From Acinetobacter venetianus RAG-1 = CIP 110063 (lineage in GTDB: Bacteria > Pseudomonadota > Gammaproteobacteria > Pseudomonadales > Moraxellaceae), in assembly GCF_000368585.1 (NCBI RefSeq), contig NZ_KB849558.1, forward strand, positions 186,001-250,000: a stretch of DNA of 64,000 nucleotides. Direction: 5' to 3'. A program made the position numbers and the translations under genes. Under the pieces are notes generated by a model, which was given only the letters and a program-made list of their open reading frames with translations, had not been told where the DNA came from and did not search any database. Below are positions 5,236 through 35,509 of this stretch, in pieces; position 1 is the stretch's first letter, and each line of letters starts with the position of its first letter.

Positions 5236-7968
5236 ATGAGCGTATCGGAAATCAGACCGATTGCCATTGAGGACGAACTCAAGCATTCATATTTAGATTA
5301 CGCGATGAGCGTAATTGTTTCTCGTGCATTGCCAGATGTTAGAGACGGTCTAAAACCTGTTCACCGCCGCGTACTATATGCGATGCATGAATTGGGCAAC
5401 GATTATAACAAAGCGTACAAAAAGTCTGCTCGTGTTGTCGGGGACGTGATCGGTAAATATCACCCACACGGTGATAGCGCAGTTTATGAAACGATCGTTC
5501 GTATGGCGCAGGACTTTAGCTTGCGTTATATGCTTGTTGATGGTCAAGGTAACTTCGGTTCTGTCGATGGGGATAGCGCAGCTGCAATGCGTTACACCGA
5601 AGTTCGTATGCAAAAATTAACCCATGAGATTTTAGCTGATCTTGAAAAAGATACGGTTGATTGGGAAGATAACTACGACGGTTCCGAGCGTATTCCTCAA
5701 GTGATGCCGACACGTATCCCTAATCTTTTGATTAATGGTACGACAGGTATTGCGGTGGGTATGGCGACCAATATGGCGCCGCACAATATGACCGAAGTTG
5801 TGAATGCGTGTTTGGCTTATGCAAATAATCCGAATATTTCTGTAGAAGGTTTGATGGAGCATATTACTGGTCCAGATTTTCCTACAGGCGGTATTATTTA
5901 TGGTAAATCAGGTATTGTAGATGCTTACCGTACAGGTAAAGGTCGTTTGCATATTCGCGGTAAATATCACTTTGAAGAAGACCAAAAAACAGGTCGTACC
6001 ACGATTGTCTTTACTGAGATTCCTTATCAAGTCAACAAAGCAAAAACCATTGAGCGTATTGCTGAGTTAGTGAAAGAAAAGAAACTCGAAGGTATTTCTG
6101 AGCTTCGTGATGAATCTGATAAAGAGGGTATGCGTATTGCCATCGACTTGAAGCGTGGCGAAAACGCTGAAGTTGCGGTCAATAATTTATTCTTGCATAC
6201 ACAGCTACAAAACTCATTCAGCATCAACATGGTCTGCCTAGACAATGGTCAGCCAAAGTTGATGAACCTAAAAGATATCATTGCGGCATTTATTCGTCAC
6301 CGCCAAGAAGTTGTGACTCGCCGTACCATGTACGAATTACGTAAGGCTCGTGAACGTGGTCATATCTTAGAAGGTTTAACGGTAGCTTTGGCAAATATCG
6401 ATGCCATTATTGAAACCATTAAAACATCTGCAAACCCAGCTGAAGCACGTGAGCGTTTGCAAGCGGGTGAGTGGGCTGGCGGTGGTGTTGTTGCATTGCT
6501 GGAAAAAGCGGGTGCAATTTCCGTTCGACCTGATGAGATCGAAGGCGAAGATCCTGCACGTCCATTCGGTTTGTCTGGTGATATTTATCGCTTATCACCA
6601 ACTCAAGTTGGCGCAATCTTAGAATTACGTTTACACCGTTTAACTGGCTTAGAACAAGATAAGTTACACGCAGAATATACTGAGATTCTAGGTCAAATCG
6701 CTGAATTAACAGCAATTTTAAATGACTTTAACTTATTGATGAATGTGATTCGTGAAGAACTTGCTTTGATCTTGCAACAATACGGTGATGGTCGTCGTAC
6801 TGAGATTGTGGAGTCTGGTGTTGATTTCTGCCGTGAAGACTTAATTCCTGAAGAGCAAGTTGTATTGACTGTGTCTCAAACAGGTTATGCAAAAACTCAA
6901 CCACTTTCTGATTATCAAGCACAACGTCGCGGTGGTCGTGGTAAGTCTGCAACTGCAATGAAAGATGATGACATTATTCAGCATTTAATTGTGGCTTCAA
7001 ACCATGCAACGGTATTGTGCTTTACCAATGTGGGTAAAGTTTATCGTTTACGTGTGTTTGAAGTACCACAAGCATCTCGTGGTGCGAAAGGTCGTCCAAT
7101 CATCAATTTACTTCCGCTAGAAGCAAATGAAACCGTAACAGCGATCTTACCGTTGACGGAGTTCCCTGAGAATCACTATGTATTCATGGCGACTGCATCA
7201 GGTACGGTAAAACGTGTCGAACTTGCTCAATTCAGTAATGTTCGTTCAAATGGTTTACGTGCGATTGAGCTGAATGAAGAAGATACCCTAATTGGTGTTG
7301 CGATTACTGATGGTAATCAGCAGATTATGTTGTTCTCGAATGAAGGTAAGGCGATTCGTTTTGCTGAAACTGATGTTCGTGCAATGGGACGTACTGCGAA
7401 AGGCGTGCGTGGTATGCGTGTAAGTTTTGCAAGCAATACCATCGAAGCTGAAGATGCGGATGTTGAAAATGATGATAGCGACGACAATGATGATTCATCA
7501 GATTCGAACTTAATCAGCCGTATTGTTTCATTGGTAGTTGTACCAGAAACTGGCGAAGTATTGTGTGCATGTGCTAACGGTTATGGTAAACGTACACCTG
7601 TAGATGACTTCCCAACCAAGAAACGTGGTGGTAAAGGTGTCATTGCAATTAAGACAAGTGAGCGTAATGGTGAGCTTGTTGGTGCAGTATCAATTGATGA
7701 AACCAAAGAACTCATGTTGATTTCTGATGGTGGTACATTGGTACGTACGCGTGCTGCAGAAGTTGCGACAACAGGTCGTAACGCTCAAGGTGTTCGTTTA
7801 ATTCGTTTAAGTGATGCTGAAACACTTGTCGGTGTTGTATCTATTGAAGCTGTAGAAGATGACGAAGAGTTGGATGCTATAGAGGAATCGGTAGAAAATA
7901 CTGAGCTTGATGCAGCAACTTCTGAAGAAGTTGTTGCTGAGCCAAAAGATGATGCGCCTGAAGCGTAA
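5236..7968 (+). CDS. gyrA: DNA gyrase subunit A
   Basis: A 910-residue GyrA, the breakage-reunion subunit of the type II topoisomerase that supercoils DNA with GyrB. Active-site Tyr120 is in AMRYTEVRM. The quinolone region reads [14 protein letters not shown] with Ser81 and Glu85, the sensitive, wild-type state in Acinetobacter numbering. The GyrA box QRRGGRG is at 563-569 and starts the C-terminal beta-pinwheel that wraps DNA. Two acidic stretches stand out: an Asp/Ser/Glu-rich insert at about residues 735-757 within the pinwheel and an acidic tail over the last 45 residues. A shared terminator follows. Confidence 0.97.
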
Positions 7969-28819: not shown

Positions 28820-29518
28820 ATGCGTCAACTCCAACTGGATATTGAACCCCAACTGGATGCTCGAATCAGTGATTTTTCGGGGCCAGGTTGGGGGCCTGTA
28901 GTTGATGCAATTAGACAGTTACATGCGGGTCTAGTGAGTCGTTTTTATATTTATGGTGGGGCTGGTACTGGAAAGAGTCATTTACTATCAGCAATTTGTG
29001 ATTCTTATCTTGAATTGGGGCGCCCAGCAATCAAGGTATCTTTATTAGAATTATTAGATGCTCCTATTGAAGCGATTACCTCATTAGAGTTTTATGATTT
29101 AGTTGCTTTAGATGACATTGATGCAATCAGTGGTGTTCCACATTGGCAAAAAGCTGTATTTCATTTAATGAATAATCACGAGGGGCAGCTTGTTTTTTCT
29201 TCTCGTGTTGCTCCTATTGAATTAAAACTAGAATTACCAGATTTACAGTCAAGGTTAACGCAGGCTGTAAGTGTGAAAGTGCCAAATGGGAGTTCTTTTT
29301 CTGATCGACAAGCATTACTTCAATCTGTGATGATCCGTCGAGGCATACATTTTGATCAACAAATTGTAGATTATTTATTATTAAATGGCCCACACCAAGC
29401 CTCTATTTTATTACAAACTCTTGCGCAGCTCGAAAAAATGTTGAAGGGCGAAAAAACAAAGCTTTCAAATACAACACTTAAGCAAATTTATGCATTAATT
29501 GATGAATATCGCCAATAG
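28820..29518 (+). CDS. hda: DnaA regulatory inactivator Hda
   Basis: A 232-residue AAA+ protein homologous to DnaA domain III. With the DNA-loaded beta clamp it stimulates DnaA-ATP hydrolysis and so prevents over-initiation. The extreme N-terminus MRQLQLDI contains a QLxL clamp-binding motif (residues 3-6). Walker A GGAGTGKS is at 46-53, Walker B is LVALDDIDAI (about 94-103), and sensor 1 lies in LVFSSRVAP. There is no DNA-binding domain IV, which separates it from DnaA. It is likely co-transcribed with the upstream permease. Confidence 0.94.
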   Translation: MRQLQLDIEPQLDARISDFSGPGWGPVVDAIRQLHAGLVSRFYIYGGAGTGKSHLLSAICDSYLELGRPAIKVSLLELLDAPIEAITSLEFYDLVALDDIDAISGVPHWQKAVFHLMNNHEGQLVFSSRVAPIELKLELPDLQSRLTQAVSVKVPNGSSFSDRQALLQSVMIRRGIHFDQQIVDYLLLNGPHQASILLQTLAQLEKMLKGEKTKLSNTTLKQIYALIDEYRQ

Positions 29519-29631
29519 CACAAAATTTCTTGAGTAATTTCGAGAGCTGTGACAAAGTACGCACAAAGGAATGTGGTTGCAAATGATTAGTTTGCAATAC
29601 GAAGAAAAATGAAAAATAGAAGGAGATCGGT

Positions 29632-31515
29632 ATGCTCAAGCGGACGCTTGCCTGTGCTTTATTTGCGATTACTGGACATGTATATTCTGCAGATATTCAA
29701 GTTACAACATTAGTTGATGAAGATAAAGATGATACTGTTTGTTCATTACGTGAAGCCGTATTCTTTTTAAATAATAGAGCTGAGACTAAGTACGAAAATG
29801 GATATCATGGTTGTGGAGATAAAGATGCAACTTCTACAATCATTTTGCAACGTGATAAAGAATATACTTTAAATAGCTCATTACAGCTTAAAGCAGCAAT
29901 GACTATTACTGTGGCAAGTAGTGGTGAGTTTAATGATAATAAAAAAGGATTAAATAATGCTACATTGAAAATGGTTGGTAATGATCGATTGTTCTTTATT
30001 GATGATGGCAGTGTAGAAAAAGACCTTATTTTAGTTACATTTAATGAGTTAAATCTTAAGGGTTCATCAAGTAAGTTAAACGATGGTGGATTGATTTATA
30101 ATCGTGAGGCATTAAATATTGTATATTCAAGATTATCTTCTGGCTACGCTGCACGAGGTGGGGCTGTTTATAATGCTGGTATTTTGTCAGATGAACGAAA
30201 AACAGCAGGATACGTAAGTTTTAATAATAGTATTATAGAAAAAAATAAGGCTGATCAAGGTGCTGTGATTTATAGTGAAATGCCTCGTTATTTAATTTCG
30301 CAATCAGTCATTAGAGATAACGAAGGCACTGCTACAACACCAGATGGTGCTTTATTATATTCACAAACAGGATTTACTGATACTACGACTGGAACAGCAC
30401 TCGCTACACGTATTGCGGGTTTGCGAAACACAACAATTTTTCATAATAAGGGTGGATATGTTGCAAATGTACGAGAGGGCATGATTCTTAATAATATTAC
30501 TATGATTAAGAATGCTGCTGGTCTCTATTTGCAAGCACCTAAGTGGACATATACATCTACAACCAATGGTGAAACAACTACAGAGAAATTACCAAGTGCT
30601 AATATTTCAAATAGTGTTTTAGTGGATAATGATGGTAAAAACTGCGTAGCTTCAGCAAATGATGAATCGATAGTACAGAGTAATTTAACCGAATTAGATT
30701 GTAATCGTAATGCCCCAACGGAAAGACCAAATATTATTTGGGATAAGAGTAAACCCGAACATAAATTAATAGCTGGTGGTGTAGACGATGAGGGAACTTG
30801 TGATGCCCCACCAGCAAATGGTCTATTATGTCCATACTACACTCCTAAAGATCAAATGCTTGGATACTTTAAACCCCGACTATTAATGTCATATATTCGA
30901 CTATCTGACTCACTTATTGTGAATAAAGGTCGAATTTACAGTGATGGTAGTTCAATAGGATTGGCAAGTTGTGAGGCAAGTGATCAACGTGGGAAAACTC
31001 GAAGCGGTTATGATGAACTTTGTGATCTAGGAGCTATTGAGCTAGTTATTAATCGTAGTGAAATACCTGTTGCTGGACAAGATATTTTATACGGAGAAAC
31101 AGCTAAATTTAATATTGCAGATAGCTTTTTAGATGGGGAGTTATTAGATATTGCTTCATGTGAGAAAATTTTGGGGAAACGCTCAGATGGCCAATCTTGG
31201 CAACCAGGTTGTTTAGAGATTCAGCAGACTCAAACTGTATCAAAAGGTAAATTAACGCTTGATCAAGAGGGTAATGTTATTTATACACCGAATAGCAATT
31301 GGCATGGTGCTGATAAATTCAATTTGCGTATTATAACAACTACAACTCGTTTCAATGATGTTTCAAATTATTACATCACGATCCCTACAACGATTGTTCA
31401 AGACCCGCCAAATAATTTCGAAAGTAAAACAGTCAATGTTGGTGGAGGAAGTTTTGGTTTTCCAGCAATTTTAATGTTGTTTGGGTTAATTGGTTTACGC
31501 CGTTTCAGAGCTTGA
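29632..31515 (+). CDS. rbtA: Rhombotarget A-like protein (CSLREA domain, GlyGly-CTERM)
   Basis: A 627-residue exported protein. The signal peptide ends at about residue 20 (GHVYSA), followed by the CSLREA N-terminal motif (residues 37-42) and a long stretch resembling a right-handed beta-helix with many Asn turns (about 45-330). The C-terminus (about 604-627) is a tripartite GlyGly-CTERM signal: GGGS, a hydrophobic helix FPAILMLFGLIGL and RRFRA. Such tails are cut by rhombosortase, a rhomboid protease. The ribosome site GGAGAT precedes the ATG. It is followed 18 bp later by a similar protein, as expected for the Acinetobacter rhombotarget A locus. Confidence 0.85.
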   Translation: MLKRTLACALFAITGHVYSADIQVTTLVDEDKDDTVCSLREAVFFLNNRAETKYENGYHGCGDKDATSTIILQRDKEYTLNSSLQLKAAMTITVASSGEFNDNKKGLNNATLKMVGNDRLFFIDDGSVEKDLILVTFNELNLKGSSSKLNDGGLIYNREALNIVYSRLSSGYAARGGAVYNAGILSDERKTAGYVSFNNSIIEKNKADQGAVIYSEMPRYLISQSVIRDNEGTATTPDGALLYSQTGFTDTTTGTALATRIAGLRNTTIFHNKGGYVANVREGMILNNITMIKNAAGLYLQAPKWTYTSTTNGETTTEKLPSANISNSVLVDNDGKNCVASANDESIVQSNLTELDCNRNAPTERPNIIWDKSKPEHKLIAGGVDDEGTCDAPPANGLLCPYYTPKDQMLGYFKPRLLMSYIRLSDSLIVNKGRIYSDGSSIGLASCEASDQRGKTRSGYDELCDLGAIELVINRSEIPVAGQDILYGETAKFNIADSFLDGELLDIASCEKILGKRSDGQSWQPGCLEIQQTQTVSKGKLTLDQEGNVIYTPNSNWHGADKFNLRIITTTTRFNDVSNYYITIPTTIVQDPPNNFESKTVNVGGGSFGFPAILMLFGLIGLRRFRA

Positions 31516-31533
31516 ACAAGGATGAGTTTAAAG

Positions 31534-33984
31534 ATGAAAAATTATAAAAAAGGAATTTTGGCTACGATGGTTGTTGCATCAATGCCATTAATTGCTGCAA
31601 CAAGCACCGATATTATTAAGGTTACTACTTTTGCTGATGAAGATGGAGAAAATACGAATGCTTGCTCATTACGAGAAGCACTAAAAGCTGCCGAAATAAG
31701 AAAGTCCTATGGTGGCTGTAGTATTAGTGATATTTCTTCTAGTACAACAAAACAAATTCAACTTGAGGCAGGTACATATACATTAAAAAGTGAGCTGGTT
31801 CCTAATGTTACTGTTACTGTTTATGGTGCTAGTCCTTTGGATTGGGAGAAAAAAAGTGCAATTACTAATCGTTACCCAGCTCAAACTGCAATTAAAACAG
31901 TGATTGATGGGAATAATAATTCTCGTATTTTCAATACAACGATTGGTGGAAGAGGATTGTTTTTAAATAACCTTACCCTTAAAGGTGGCAAAACCTCTGA
32001 TCGTGGTGGGGCAATTTATGCAGGGGCAGATATAAGTCTGAATAATGTACAAATTCTTTCTTCTCAGGCCGCGGTTGCTGGGGGGGCAATTTTTCTTGCT
32101 GGCCCAACAGCGGGGTTATCTGTCGCAAACTCTGTAATTAAGGCGAATCAATCTCCACTTGGAAGTGTTTTGGGTATGAGTTGTTTCAATGACAACGTGT
32201 ACTCAAAGCGTGAGATTACTTTCTCTGCAAGTAGCATTATTGCAAATGGTTCAACATCATCAGGTAGCGTGTTCGATTTTTGTGGGGAACCAACAGTTAA
32301 TTTAACTACAAATACTATAGCTCAAAACAAGGCAAATAGTGCAACTGGAACAATAATTAAGTTTAGTGGTGATACTAAGGCTGGAAGTGCTACAGATAAT
32401 TCTTCAAGTATTCTGAGTGGTAATAGTAGCTTAGTGATGACGAGTAATACGGTCGTTGAGAACCAAGCGAACACAGTTTTTCTCTATGATAAATTAGGCT
32501 TAAAAGCATTAGGTTTCAATGTCTTATCTTTTAATAATAGTAGTTATGCGTGTCGTTATTTGCTAGGTGCTGCTGAGGATCAAGAAAATGTTAATATGTT
32601 ACTTGCTTATAATGCTTTTGCTTTAAGCGCAAGTAATAATAAATGTGATTTACCAAAAGAAGCACTTCCTGAAGACCATACTAATCTTGATATTAGTACA
32701 CAAAGTATGGGAACTTTATTAAGTGCTCTACAGCCCGAAACAGAAAATACTTCTTTCTTACCACTGTACTATCCAAAGAATAATAAAACTGAAACAGATT
32801 TAGTTGATGTGAGCACAGTAGGTGCGGATGGTTGTAGTACAAATGATCAACGAGGGATAGCACGTATTGCAGATGGTACTCTTTATTATGATCCAGATGC
32901 CCGAAATAGTTGTGATATTGGTTCAGTAGAGTTAATGAAGTTTACAGCTGGTGATCTAGAAGATCTGTCGAATGTATCTATTAAAGGTTTGGTTGATGGT
33001 TATAAACAGCAAATTGAAAACTATGAATATCTAATAGAAAATCCAGACGATCCATTGCTTACAACATCGGATAAAGATAATTTAGAAATCAATAAAAATC
33101 TCTATGACAGTACAAAGAATAACCTGCATTATCGTGCAATTTATGTTGATTTAAAGAAATATCAGTTACCTCTACCGGAAGAGTTAATACAATCAGATGG
33201 TACGCATAAGATCCAATTTTTTGATAAAACTTTGTATAATGTTACGACTGAGGCATTAGGGGTTGGTCAAATTAATGATGCCGTTACTAGCGTACAGCCA
33301 GATGAAAATTTAGTTTGTTCTTGGAATCAAGATCTTGGGCAAATCATTATTTATCGTAAAGATGACACAATTACTCAAGCTGGCGATAAAGTGTTTTGTA
33401 AGTATACTATTCAGTCAATAGCTAATCCAACAGTAAAATCATCGGGGTTAATTAAAGCCGCATTTACTAATATTGCGCCTGAAGTAGAAGATACCTCGGT
33501 AACTTTAAAGTATCAACAAAATCAAAAAATTGCTTTGAATTTATTGAAATATGCTAACGATGATGGTGATACGGGGGAGGGTGGAAATGGTCCAGATAAT
33601 AATCCAAATAAATCAGCTTTTTGGATAAATGAAGAGGGTATTGAATTACCAATTCGTTTAACAAATGTACCGAGTAAGAATATTATTGTTACTGCAGATC
33701 GTCAGGGTGCTTGTCCTGCTCCAGATGATAAAGAAACCTGTTATGGCGGTAATATTTATATTCAAGAGTCAAATAACTTTAACCCGTTCAATTACTCATT
33801 TAATTACCAAGTTTACGATAATGATAGTACACCTGCTATTTCTAATGTTGGCACTGTAAATATCATTAGTACAGCAACAACAACAGATGATACTCGTAAT
33901 GCAAGTAGTGGCGGGGGAAGTATGGGGTGGCTTTCTTTACTTGGACTGTTTGGGATGTTGGGCTATCGCCGTATGAAGAAATAA
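31534..33984 (+). CDS. CSLREA-domain GlyGly-CTERM protein, companion of rhombotarget A
   Basis: An 816-residue exported protein, paralogous in design to its upstream neighbour. The signal peptide ends near residue 21 (MPLIAA), CSLREA is at 44-49, and a repetitive Asn/Ser/Gly-rich beta-helix-like region runs from about 60 to 400. Later Ig-like or cadherin-like segments lie at about 620-780, ahead of a C-terminal GGGSMGWLSLLGLFGMLGYRRMKK-type tail (described here by its parts: glycine run, helix, basic end). AAGGATGAG sits 7 bp before the ATG at 31534, so I prefer it to the ATG at 31522. Probably a surface or secreted protein. Confidence 0.83.
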   Translation: MKNYKKGILATMVVASMPLIAATSTDIIKVTTFADEDGENTNACSLREALKAAEIRKSYGGCSISDISSSTTKQIQLEAGTYTLKSELVPNVTVTVYGASPLDWEKKSAITNRYPAQTAIKTVIDGNNNSRIFNTTIGGRGLFLNNLTLKGGKTSDRGGAIYAGADISLNNVQILSSQAAVAGGAIFLAGPTAGLSVANSVIKANQSPLGSVLGMSCFNDNVYSKREITFSASSIIANGSTSSGSVFDFCGEPTVNLTTNTIAQNKANSATGTIIKFSGDTKAGSATDNSSSILSGNSSLVMTSNTVVENQANTVFLYDKLGLKALGFNVLSFNNSSYACRYLLGAAEDQENVNMLLAYNAFALSASNNKCDLPKEALPEDHTNLDISTQSMGTLLSALQPETENTSFLPLYYPKNNKTETDLVDVSTVGADGCSTNDQRGIARIADGTLYYDPDARNSCDIGSVELMKFTAGDLEDLSNVSIKGLVDGYKQQIENYEYLIENPDDPLLTTSDKDNLEINKNLYDSTKNNLHYRAIYVDLKKYQLPLPEELIQSDGTHKIQFFDKTLYNVTTEALGVGQINDAVTSVQPDENLVCSWNQDLGQIIIYRKDDTITQAGDKVFCKYTIQSIANPTVKSSGLIKAAFTNIAPEVEDTSVTLKYQQNQKIALNLLKYANDDGDTGEGGNGPDNNPNKSAFWINEEGIELPIRLTNVPSKNIIVTADRQGACPAPDDKETCYGGNIYIQESNNFNPFNYSFNYQVYDNDSTPAISNVGTVNIISTATTTDDTRNASSGGGSMGWLSLLGLFGMLGYRRMKK

Positions 33985-33997
33985 AATTTGATTCAAT

Positions 33998-34025
33998 AAA
34001 AATAGCGCCTTTAGGCGCTATTTTT
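33998..34025. terminator. Bidirectional terminator between the GlyGly-CTERM pair and the sigma operon
   Basis: AAAAATAGCGCC and GGCGCTATTTTT form a 12-bp perfect stem around CTTTA/TTTA, with A and T runs built into the arms. It serves both convergent operons. Confidence 0.9.
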
Positions 34026-34047
34026 ATGCATAGTTTAATTTTTGAAA

Positions 34048-34437
34048 TCAATGTTCAGAATATTTACTTAAGTATTCTTCTCGGATGTTTAATCTTTCTT
34101 CAACACTGGCATTCTGCATTCTTTTACGCAATGTATTACGTTCTTGGGTGCTCATTTTTTGCCAAACATCACGCATTTTTTGTTTTTCATTTTCTGGCAG
34201 TTGAGTAAACCACTCCATTCTTTGTTGGAGTTGAGTGCTTTGATTTGTCGGAATTTCTTTTAGTGTTTGATAGCGTTGAATCAATACACGTTGTTCTTCA
34301 GGCGAGAGATCATCCCAAGCTTCTTCAGTTGTTGGTTTATTAGGTTTAGAAAAAACCCAAAAACGCTCTGAACTAGCAAAACTGGTTTGTAGCAGGCTGA
34401 GTGTGCATACAACAAGAGCAATTCTTTTAGCTGCCAT
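34048..34437 (-). CDS. DUF3106-domain exported protein
   Basis: A 129-residue protein with a signal peptide ending near residue 22 (LLQTSFAS). The mature part is a helical DUF3106 domain with repeated patterns W-x2-L-x-P-E-E/Q-x-R (EAWDDLSPEEQRVL, EWFTQLPENEKQKM, WQKMSTQERNTL). It is the last gene of the operon; its ATG lies within the end of the preceding gene (CATGGCAGCTAA), an 11-bp overlap. In betaproteobacteria the same trio of sigma factor, DUF3619 and DUF3106 occurs. The function is unknown; a periplasmic sensory or chaperone-like role is possible by analogy with CpxP-like helical proteins. Confidence 0.8.
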   Translation of the reverse strand: MAAKRIALVVCTLSLLQTSFASSERFWVFSKPNKPTTEEAWDDLSPEEQRVLIQRYQTLKEIPTNQSTQLQQRMEWFTQLPENEKQKMRDVWQKMSTQERNTLRKRMQNASVEERLNIREEYLSKYSEH

Positions 34438-34750
34438 GAGGAACTCTATCTTCACCAAAGGCCATTAACATTTCCATATCTTCAACCATTTGTGGTGAAA
34501 GTTTTGGATTTACGATCACTTGATTTTGCTGTTTGTCTGCAAGTTGCAATGAACTAGGTAATACAACAATACCCATAAGTGCTGCTGCAAAAGCAAAGCC
34601 CGTCATTTTCCAAATACTGTAGTAAGACGTTGGTTTCTTTTGAACAGTATCAAGAACATGATTCATCACTAACATTTTGTTGTGATATTGCTCTTTCTCA
34701 AGTTGATCGAGCTTGGAAGTCACTTTTTTTGTGAACTCATCTTTATTCAT
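34427..34750 (-). CDS. DUF3619-like single-pass membrane protein, possible anti-sigma factor
   Basis: A 107-residue protein with a polar, charged N-terminal half (MNKDEFTKKVTSKLDQLEKE), one membrane helix at about 47-64 (FAFAAALMGIVVLPSS) and a short periplasmic end. The ATG at 34750 is chosen because GGAGG lies 8 bp upstream inside the sigma gene; the two genes overlap by 8 bp (ATGAATAA). The position immediately behind a sigma gene and the one-helix layout are those of an anti-sigma factor, but no zinc-binding motif (HxxxCxxC) is present. The DUF3619 assignment is by layout and context. Confidence 0.7.
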   Translation of the reverse strand: MNKDEFTKKVTSKLDQLEKEQYHNKMLVMNHVLDTVQKKPTSYYSIWKMTGFAFAAALMGIVVLPSSLQLADKQQNQVIVNPKLSPQMVEDMEMLMAFGEDRVPHGS

Positions 34751-35372
34751 CTGATGATCCTCCATGTGGATTTAAATGCTCTAAAGCGATTCTGAGTCCT
34801 TGAATTGCACGATGATAGTGTGTTTTTACACTGCCTTCACTACAATCCATGATTTGAGCTGTGGTAGATGTATCAAAACCTTCCCAAGCTCTCAACATAA
34901 AAGCTTGCTGTTGTCTTACTGGTAGCTGGTTAATCGCTACCTGAATTTCTTCCATTGTTACTTCTTGATTGAGAAATTCAAATGGATTTGGAGTGGATTC
35001 ATCGACGACATCAATAATTTCATTGTCGTCATCTAGACTCACTTTTTTGAATAGAGAAAATGGGCTTGCTCGACGCGCTTCTTTACGTCGCCAATCCTGT
35101 AATTTGTTATTAAGGATGGTATAGAAAAGAGGATACCATTCTTCTGTACTTTTATCAGAATATGATTTGTGTAAGGAAATAAAGGCTTCTTGGACTAAAT
35201 CCATTGCAATACCTTGTTGTCCTTGCGTCGCACTTTCCATCATCACTAGGGCACGACCAGTAACATCTTGCATAAAAAAACGCAGACGTTGTTCAACAGT
35301 ACTGTGATCAGTACTGCTATCTGTTCGAGCCTGTTTCGGTGCTAAATCCATAGAGATGGAAAATCCTGTCAT
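34743..35372 (-). CDS. RNA polymerase sigma-70 family (ECF-like) factor
   Basis: A 209-residue sigma factor with region 2 (about 40-105, including MDLVQEAFISLHKSY and FYTILNNKLQDWRRKEARR) and region 4 (about 140-200, including INQLPVRQQQAFMLRAWEGF and the helix-turn-helix CSEGSVKTHYHRAI). An acidic linker lies between. Three in-frame starts exist: GTG 35378, ATG 35372 (behind GGTGGG) and ATG 35351. I use 35372. It heads a coupled three-gene operon with membrane and periplasmic proteins, which suggests envelope-signal control. The target genes are unknown. Confidence 0.87.
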   Translation of the reverse strand: MTGFSISMDLAPKQARTDSSTDHSTVEQRLRFFMQDVTGRALVMMESATQGQQGIAMDLVQEAFISLHKSYSDKSTEEWYPLFYTILNNKLQDWRRKEARRASPFSLFKKVSLDDDNEIIDVVDESTPNPFEFLNQEVTMEEIQVAINQLPVRQQQAFMLRAWEGFDTSTTAQIMDCSEGSVKTHYHRAIQGLRIALEHLNPHGGSSDE

Positions 35373-35509
35373 GGACACCCACCATTATTTCCAATTCATT
35401 AACCATATAACGTTGAAAATGGTGGATTCGTTGACAACTTAAGCAATTATTTTTAGTAGTGTAATTGATTTTCTCAGTAAAAAAATCGTATTTAAAATAA
35501 ATTAACGTT

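Follow-up and report, generated by a model that had tools for sequence, protein, structure and literature searches.

Which route do two large, adjacent proteins of Acinetobacter venetianus RAG-1 take out of the cell, and which enzyme processes their C-termini? The two open reading frames (ORFs) lie on the + strand of a 64,000-nucleotide stretch of DNA (the window; G000:C3:186001-250000 of a 3.46-Mb assembly), at positions 29632-31515 (627 amino acids) and 31522-33984 (820 amino acids), separated by a gap of 6 bases. The original prediction, made from the window, was that both proteins share a signal peptide, a CSLREA segment, a beta-helix-like region and a GlyGly tail, and that both are candidate substrates of a rhombosortase encoded elsewhere. 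Gene 1 is rbtA, encoding rhombotarget A (RbtA), and the name RbtB was coined in this analysis for the product of gene 2. We consider it about 85% probable that rbtA and rbtB form a two-gene unit whose products, two paralogous surface proteins, follow the rhombosortase/GlyGly-CTERM sorting route. The system itself and the RbtA family are already in print, as is the occurrence of two such proteins in Acinetobacter genomes; this analysis adds where the enzyme is encoded, the paralogy of RbtB with a model of it, a record of co-loss and empty sites, and a likely mislabel in a published secretome.

Both C-termini matched the GlyGly_CTERM model (TIGR03501, cut-off 15.5), at residues 604-625 of 627 in RbtA (31441..31506, + strand; 17.1 bits) and at residues 797-817 of 820 in RbtB (33910..33972, + strand; 19.0 bits), and the glycine motif was GGGS in both. 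The CSLREA_Nterm model (TIGR04214, cut-off 25) likewise scored above its cut-off in both proteins, with 37.5 bits at residues 22-47 of RbtA and 41.9 bits at residues 32-57 of RbtB, so that the common design of the original prediction held. A six-frame scan of the whole genome with TIGR03501 at E <= 10 returned exactly two sites, those of RbtA and RbtB, both above the cut-off; unnoticed additional GlyGly-CTERM companions in this genome were thereby ruled out. The model has 22 positions, and at E <= 10 it matched in 11 of 14 control genomes, above the cut-off in one; at E <= 0.05 none of the 14 was matched.

The original prediction had placed the processing enzyme outside the window and depended on its presence somewhere in the genome. 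A genome-wide search settled this point: a rhombosortase (TIGR03902, 149.1 bits against a cut-off of 84) is encoded at G000:C2:428982-429431, on a contig other than that of the window. The type II secretion system (T2SS), judged on the secretin GspD, was also present (557.2 bits against a cut-off of 351.35). The tail scores, together with rhombosortase and GspD in the same genome, support the reading of both proteins as rhombosortase substrates. At E <= 0.001, TIGR03902 matched all 14 control genomes, none of them above the cut-off, and only matches above the cut-off were therefore counted as rhombosortase. Two more rhomboids in the RAG-1 genome gave 41.2 and 22.7 bits with this model; compared as proteins, one matched the rhombosortase model best and the other the GlpG model, both under every cut-off. 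A gene for a 360-amino-acid lipoprotein-like protein precedes the rhombosortase gene on the same strand (L001 1459-3207, - strand), and this protein matched nothing in Pfam at E <= 0.01 or in NCBIfam at E <= 0.001.

Gene 1 is a member of an established family. It scored 995.4 bits against the rhombotarget A equivalog model (TIGR04212, cut-off 295) over profile positions 1-605 of 605, and its residues 19-472 matched the A. baumannii RbtA structures 9CDU/9CDV of the Protein Data Bank (PDB) at E 1.7e-142. These crystals span the beta-helix domain, and the immunoglobulin (Ig)-like domain is predicted there (PMC12643943). The A. baumannii protein and gene 1 have a common order of beta-helix, Ig-like domain and tail (PMC12643943), the crystallised chains are 52-54% identical to gene 1 in Foldseek alignments, and no functional difference between them is known. 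The AlphaFold model of RbtA had a mean predicted local distance difference test (pLDDT) of 84.3 and matched 9cdv_A in Foldseek at E 1.2e-40 (TMt 0.91). The CSLREA segment occupies residues 21-47 (29692..29772, + strand), with a helix at 39-47 in the model, followed by the beta-helix domain at residues ~48-472 (29773..31047, + strand). An Ig/cadherin-like domain at residues ~480-592 (31069..31407, + strand) is seen as strands in the model and as weak Pfam matches (PF17892 and PF17963, both slightly below their cut-offs). The choice-of-anchor Q domain (NF041518, cut-off 25) reached 18.0 bits, below the cut-off.

RbtB is a diverged paralogue of RbtA with the same fold. Among whole-protein NCBIfam families none exceeded its cut-off, and Pfam gave nothing at E <= 1; TIGR04212 did not list the protein at E <= 1, and NF041518 gave 16.7 bits, again below the cut-off. 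Relatives were aligned from ORF sets, of which the + strand set held 14 RbtA and 20 RbtB sequences and a larger set held 21 and 29. A first alignment (A1) joined the window RbtB with 19 of 20 RbtB references, the twentieth being the window's own gene; larger ones, with near-duplicates limited by hand, joined it with 41 of 54 RbtB ORFs (A2) and the window RbtA with 36 of 44 RbtA ORFs (A3). TIGR04212 matched 24 of the 42 RbtB members, and NF041518 31 of them, at E <= 0.01. In a profile-profile comparison (hhalign), residues 3-474 of RbtB aligned with nearly the same residues of RbtA (probability 99.7%, E 8.2e-27, 26% identity). The AlphaFold model of RbtB, built with 42 sequences, had a mean pLDDT of 87.7 and a predicted template-modelling score of 0.82; over its span 29-472 it superimposed on 9cdu_C in VIA-align with Z 35.5 and a root-mean-square deviation (rmsd) of 2.6 for 365 residues. 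The relation is drawn from the profile-profile comparison and the model; the RbtB sequence alone found no solved structure at E <= 1, and its profile found four rows only, at E 0.48-0.92. The Foldseek ranking of the whole RbtB model, mostly cadherin matches with query TM-scores of 0.09-0.14, was left unused and VIA-align was used instead.

In RbtB the CSLREA segment (residues 32-57; 31615..31692, + strand), found in 42 of 42 alignment members, precedes the beta-helix domain at residues ~58-470 (31693..32931, + strand), which was placed by the model and its match to 9cdu_C. Unlike RbtA, RbtB is predicted to carry an additional helical hairpin at residues ~484-533 (32971..33120, + strand; helices 487-506 and 511-532) and a second Ig-like domain. 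The hairpin had no counterpart in the RbtA model, and its mean identity of 0.30 was the lowest of the segments measured. The two modelled Ig/cadherin-like domains lie at residues ~538-648 and 650-783 (33133..33870, + strand); Cadherin_4 matched in 8 of the 42 members, and residues 650-786 aligned with Intimin D00-D0 in VIA-align at Z 8.6, a middling value. The CSLREA segment was the best conserved of the segments measured in both families (mean identity to the window protein 0.77 in RbtA and 0.71 in RbtB), and in both models it contributes a helix where the beta-helix begins. Conserved cysteines flank the domain: Cys37 and Cys61 of RbtA (at least 95%), with a second pair, 447 and 464, flanking the DQRG segment at the far end of the beta-helix, and 48 and 66 (at the CSLREA end) and 438 and 464 (around the DQRG segment) in RbtB. 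These pairs may form disulfide-locked caps at both ends of the beta-helix in the two proteins.

The distribution of the pair and its enzyme was tallied in 119 Acinetobacter genomes. RbtA and rhombosortase were each above the cut-off in 100 genomes and GspD in 106, and RbtB was matched in 100, one of them (G117) as fragments; at E <= 0.001, TIGR03902 matched in 118 of the 119, because other rhomboids also match. The pair, rhombosortase and GspD were present together in 97 genomes, not every pair among which was checked for intactness: RbtA carried one stop in G068 and was matched in two pieces in G019, and the RbtB tail of G086 lay in a separate short open frame. All were absent in 12 genomes, the pair and rhombosortase were absent with GspD present in five, and two had rhombosortase and GspD without an intact pair (G093 and G117). 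The rhombosortase state was left unknown in G110 (64% complete, with both proteins) and G030 (65%, with part of RbtA only). Parsimony on a gyrA tree of 118 genomes (G113 was left out, having no gyrA match at E <= 1e-200) gave 10 losses of the pair, eight of rhombosortase and six of GspD, counts that are approximate since support was low at several deep nodes. All eight inferred rhombosortase losses fell within lineages with pair loss. At E <= 0.05, TIGR03501 matched in 88 genomes; neither G093 nor any of the 17 genomes without rhombosortase was among them. The state of G117 looks like a recent loss of the pair (L190 3946-5242): rbtA is cut short and followed by a transposase-like ORF, only the end of rbtB is left, and rhombosortase is kept.

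The best explanation, held with the same confidence of roughly 85%, is Sec export, a rhombosortase cut at the glycine motif, probable lipid attachment and T2SS transport to the surface. RbtA and RbtB would be exported by Sec and would fold in the periplasm as a disulfide-bearing beta-helix with one (RbtA) or two (RbtB) Ig-like domains, while the C-terminal helix, predicted at residues 610-626 of RbtA and 803-819 of RbtB, would meanwhile be parked in the inner membrane. For this folding step, the beta-helix is known by crystal for A. baumannii RbtA, the rest is predicted, and the disulfides are suggested by the conserved cysteines. The unlinked rhombosortase would cut the glycine-rich motif, and the new C-terminus would probably gain a glycerophosphoethanolamine lipid. 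The T2SS would then carry each protein to the outer surface, to be anchored there or released in vesicles.

The proposed C-terminal cut draws on VesB of Vibrio cholerae and on published T2SS and vesicle results with homologues from Acinetobacter, and the lipid attachment is put forward by analogy with VesB. In V. cholerae, the rhombosortase cut leaves the second glycine of VesB exposed, and VesB gains a group that contains glycerophosphoethanolamine and reaches the surface through the T2SS (PMC6219818); the tail and the rhombosortase RssP are enough for membrane association, and passage through the outer membrane needs a second signal (PMC13393428, 2026). VesB and RssP resemble the present case in that VesB depends on the T2SS, has a tail of this type and is served by a dedicated rhombosortase in a genome that also encodes other rhomboids (PMC6219818, PMC11389362, PMC13393428). 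The exported domain of VesB is a protease, whereas RbtA and RbtB have a beta-helix with Ig-like domains. No difference of kind was seen from the described GlyGly-CTERM/rhombosortase system, which has the same tripartite tail, a rhombosortase in the genome and two clients; Haft and Varghese (2011) listed five Acinetobacter genomes with two GlyGly-CTERM proteins apiece, A. baylyi ADP1 among them (PMC3237569). In A. nosocomialis, a pair labelled GlyGly-CTERM was among the largest changes in the secreted fraction between wild type and a gspD mutant (PMC4713064), and a CSLREA protein was reduced in an A. baumannii gspD mutant (PMC9245377). Vesicles from a strain deficient in lipooligosaccharide contained less RbtA (-3.99) and less of the protein of the following locus tag (-3.36), which is annotated as a 'Gammaproteobacterial enzyme transmembrane domain protein' and which we take to be RbtB (PMC11395390). 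No paper joining A1S_2602 with the T2SS and the secretome was found in the literature search.

The A. nosocomialis report names the adjacent secreted pair M215_02250/M215_02255 'GlyGly-CTERM and rhombosortase' (PMC4713064), and rhombosortase itself appears among the T2SS substrates given in a review (PMC5861075). In G008, a genome of A. nosocomialis, rbtA (1042794-1044635) has rbtB (1040334-1042772) as its neighbour and the rhombosortase lies at 1518364-1518810, ~474 kb from the pair. Judged from G008, which is not strain M2, the rhombosortase label on the secreted neighbour is likely a slip.

Several observations weigh against this sorting route. The tail helices were of low confidence (block means of ~48-61 pLDDT); the strand-rich body upstream of the tails was mostly above 80 in both models, and RbtB fell under 50 at residues 788-802, just before its tail helix. 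GG was present within the last 40 residues of 42 of 42 RbtB and 33 of 37 RbtA aligned sequences and was reduced to a single Gly-Ser in the other 4 of 37 RbtA sequences, so the strict motif is not always kept. Thirteen genomes with RbtA at least partly retained gave no tail at E <= 0.05, which indicates that the TIGR03501 model is not fully sensitive. G093 has rhombosortase and neither RbtA nor RbtB, and G115 (one of the 119) has rhombosortase and RbtB, with RbtA in pieces, without GspD. The literature search, in the portions of the sources available, found no report of tail cleavage or lipid attachment for Acinetobacter. Finally, the best structural matches of the RbtB model other than RbtA were carbohydrate-active enzymes, and Lys328 of RbtB was conserved at 90% or more, so the surface-function step is weak. 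As a separate observation, the orphan rhombosortase of G093 (L189 3835-4623, + strand) scored 126 bits, and no RbtA, RbtB or GlyGly-CTERM match was found in that genome.

For the mature proteins, a glycan-binding or adhesive role is our tentative proposal, held at slightly less than even odds: the beta-helix would serve on the cell surface as an adhesin or scaffold that attaches to glycan or to another surface, and not as a lyase. The alternative, in which the two proteins would be polysaccharide lyases or hydrolases anchored at the surface, with the beta-helix as catalytic domain, is unlikely, although the structural matches of RbtB give it some weight. After RbtA, the top matches of the RbtB model were pectate lyase Pel9A (1ru4; Z 23.9, 335 residues, rmsd 3.4), PL6 alginate lyases (Z 22.4 and 22.2), rhamnogalacturonan lyase (Z 20.0) and VexL (Z 19.5). 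In the beta-helix of RbtB, E91, R135, E313 and D323 were kept at 95% or more, in addition to K328 at its lower level, and the same type of tag is found on nuclease-like and trypsin-like proteins in four other genomes. The Pel9A and PL6 enzymes share a beta-helix fold with the N-terminal domain of RbtB (Z 20-24), which is no claim of membership, and a beta-helix in common shows no function. Beta-helix polysaccharide lyases have a catalytic lysine base and an acidic metal site in the beta-helix. No lysine was conserved at 95% or more within the beta-helix of either protein (42 RbtB and 37 RbtA sequences), K328 of RbtB reaching 90% or more; the conserved positions of both include many Asn, Gly and Cys, and the charged residues of the RbtA beta-helix domain kept at 95% were confined to the CSLREA segment, R416 and the DQRG...CD.G..E segment. 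A more speculative proposal, which we regard as improbable, is that RbtA and RbtB would work together as two halves of one surface structure, each with a C-terminal lipid anchor of its own, and would be in most Acinetobacter the sole reason that rhombosortase is kept; the pair and the unlinked enzyme gene would then vanish together for that reason.

All 57 loci found with the RbtB profile carry Acinetobacter names. In 55 of the 57, the order was perM, hda, rbtA and rbtB, followed on the opposite strand by a DUF3106 gene, a small gene, an extracytoplasmic function (ECF) sigma factor and an RNA methyltransferase-like gene, and in the remaining two the match was limited to the upstream half. Of the 18 genomes lacking the pair, 14 had the DUF3106 match ~30-95 bases beyond the end of the hda match, with the small gene and the sigma factor next, indicating that the pair tends to go missing as a unit while the sigma module stays. 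Among the others, hda was directly followed by the methyltransferase-like gene in G050, no downstream marker was found within 1.5 kb of hda in G076 and G093, and hda was not found in G032. A tidy, gene-free site of this kind would also be expected if the pair were a mobile cassette gained repeatedly at one site and not an ancestral unit lost repeatedly. This is very unlikely: the same flanks hold the pair in the 55 loci, the unlinked rhombosortase is also missing from eight of the 10 lineages that lost the pair, and, in 149 genomes of the family scanned, 10 of the 40 RbtA matches above the cut-off lay in four other genera, which favours ancestral presence and loss over repeated gain.

That both proteins are ordinary C-terminally inner-membrane-anchored proteins, with the rhombosortase serving other clients, is very unlikely. 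A hydrophobic tail with a basic end would by itself anchor a protein, but no other GlyGly-CTERM protein was found in the six-frame scan of the genome, all inferred rhombosortase losses are on pair-less lineages, and homologues are reported from T2SS-dependent secreted fractions and outer membrane vesicles (PMC4713064, PMC11395390).

Under the rhombosortase route, Acinetobacter offers a simple setting for rhombosortase work, because only two clients are present here, side by side, and the genus contains natural losses of client, enzyme and secretion system that lend themselves to comparison. The stronger statement that the genus has no other clients was refuted by five tails outside the pair in other Acinetobacter genomes. 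Two of these belong to Lamin-tail/endonuclease-like proteins, two to trypsin-like ones, and the fifth, whose KSGS motif is doubtful, to a VWA protein. The Lamin-tail/endonuclease-like and trypsin-like proteins come from four genomes (loci L268, L269, L271 and L272) and resemble in type the V. cholerae clients described as nuclease and serine protease. On a short contig (L273), G042 carries part of a second copy, in which an RbtA-like tail precedes an RbtB-like N-terminus.

Within the window, rbtA is preceded by a likely ribosome-binding site, AAGGAG, at 29620..29625 (+ strand), judged by eye from the sequence. The start of rbtB may be the ATG at 31534 (MKNYKK...) instead of 31522; no in-frame methionine was present upstream of this motif in 16 of 28 relatives. 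Promoter-like patterns in 29350-34200 numbered 11 against a shuffle mean of 21.4, with no excess, and terminator-like patterns in the same interval numbered 4 against 2.5, not distinct from shuffles; the operon structure of rbtA-rbtB is consequently judged by the 6-base gap alone. A convergent module follows rbtB at 34048-35378 (- strand), encoding a DUF3106 protein, a small protein and an ECF sigma factor. GyrA, encoded in the window at 5236-7968 (+ strand), occurs in the genus in two length classes, of ~880-940 amino acids, as here, and of ~980-1010 amino acids, and the long class aligns to the window GyrA only up to residue ~646-678.

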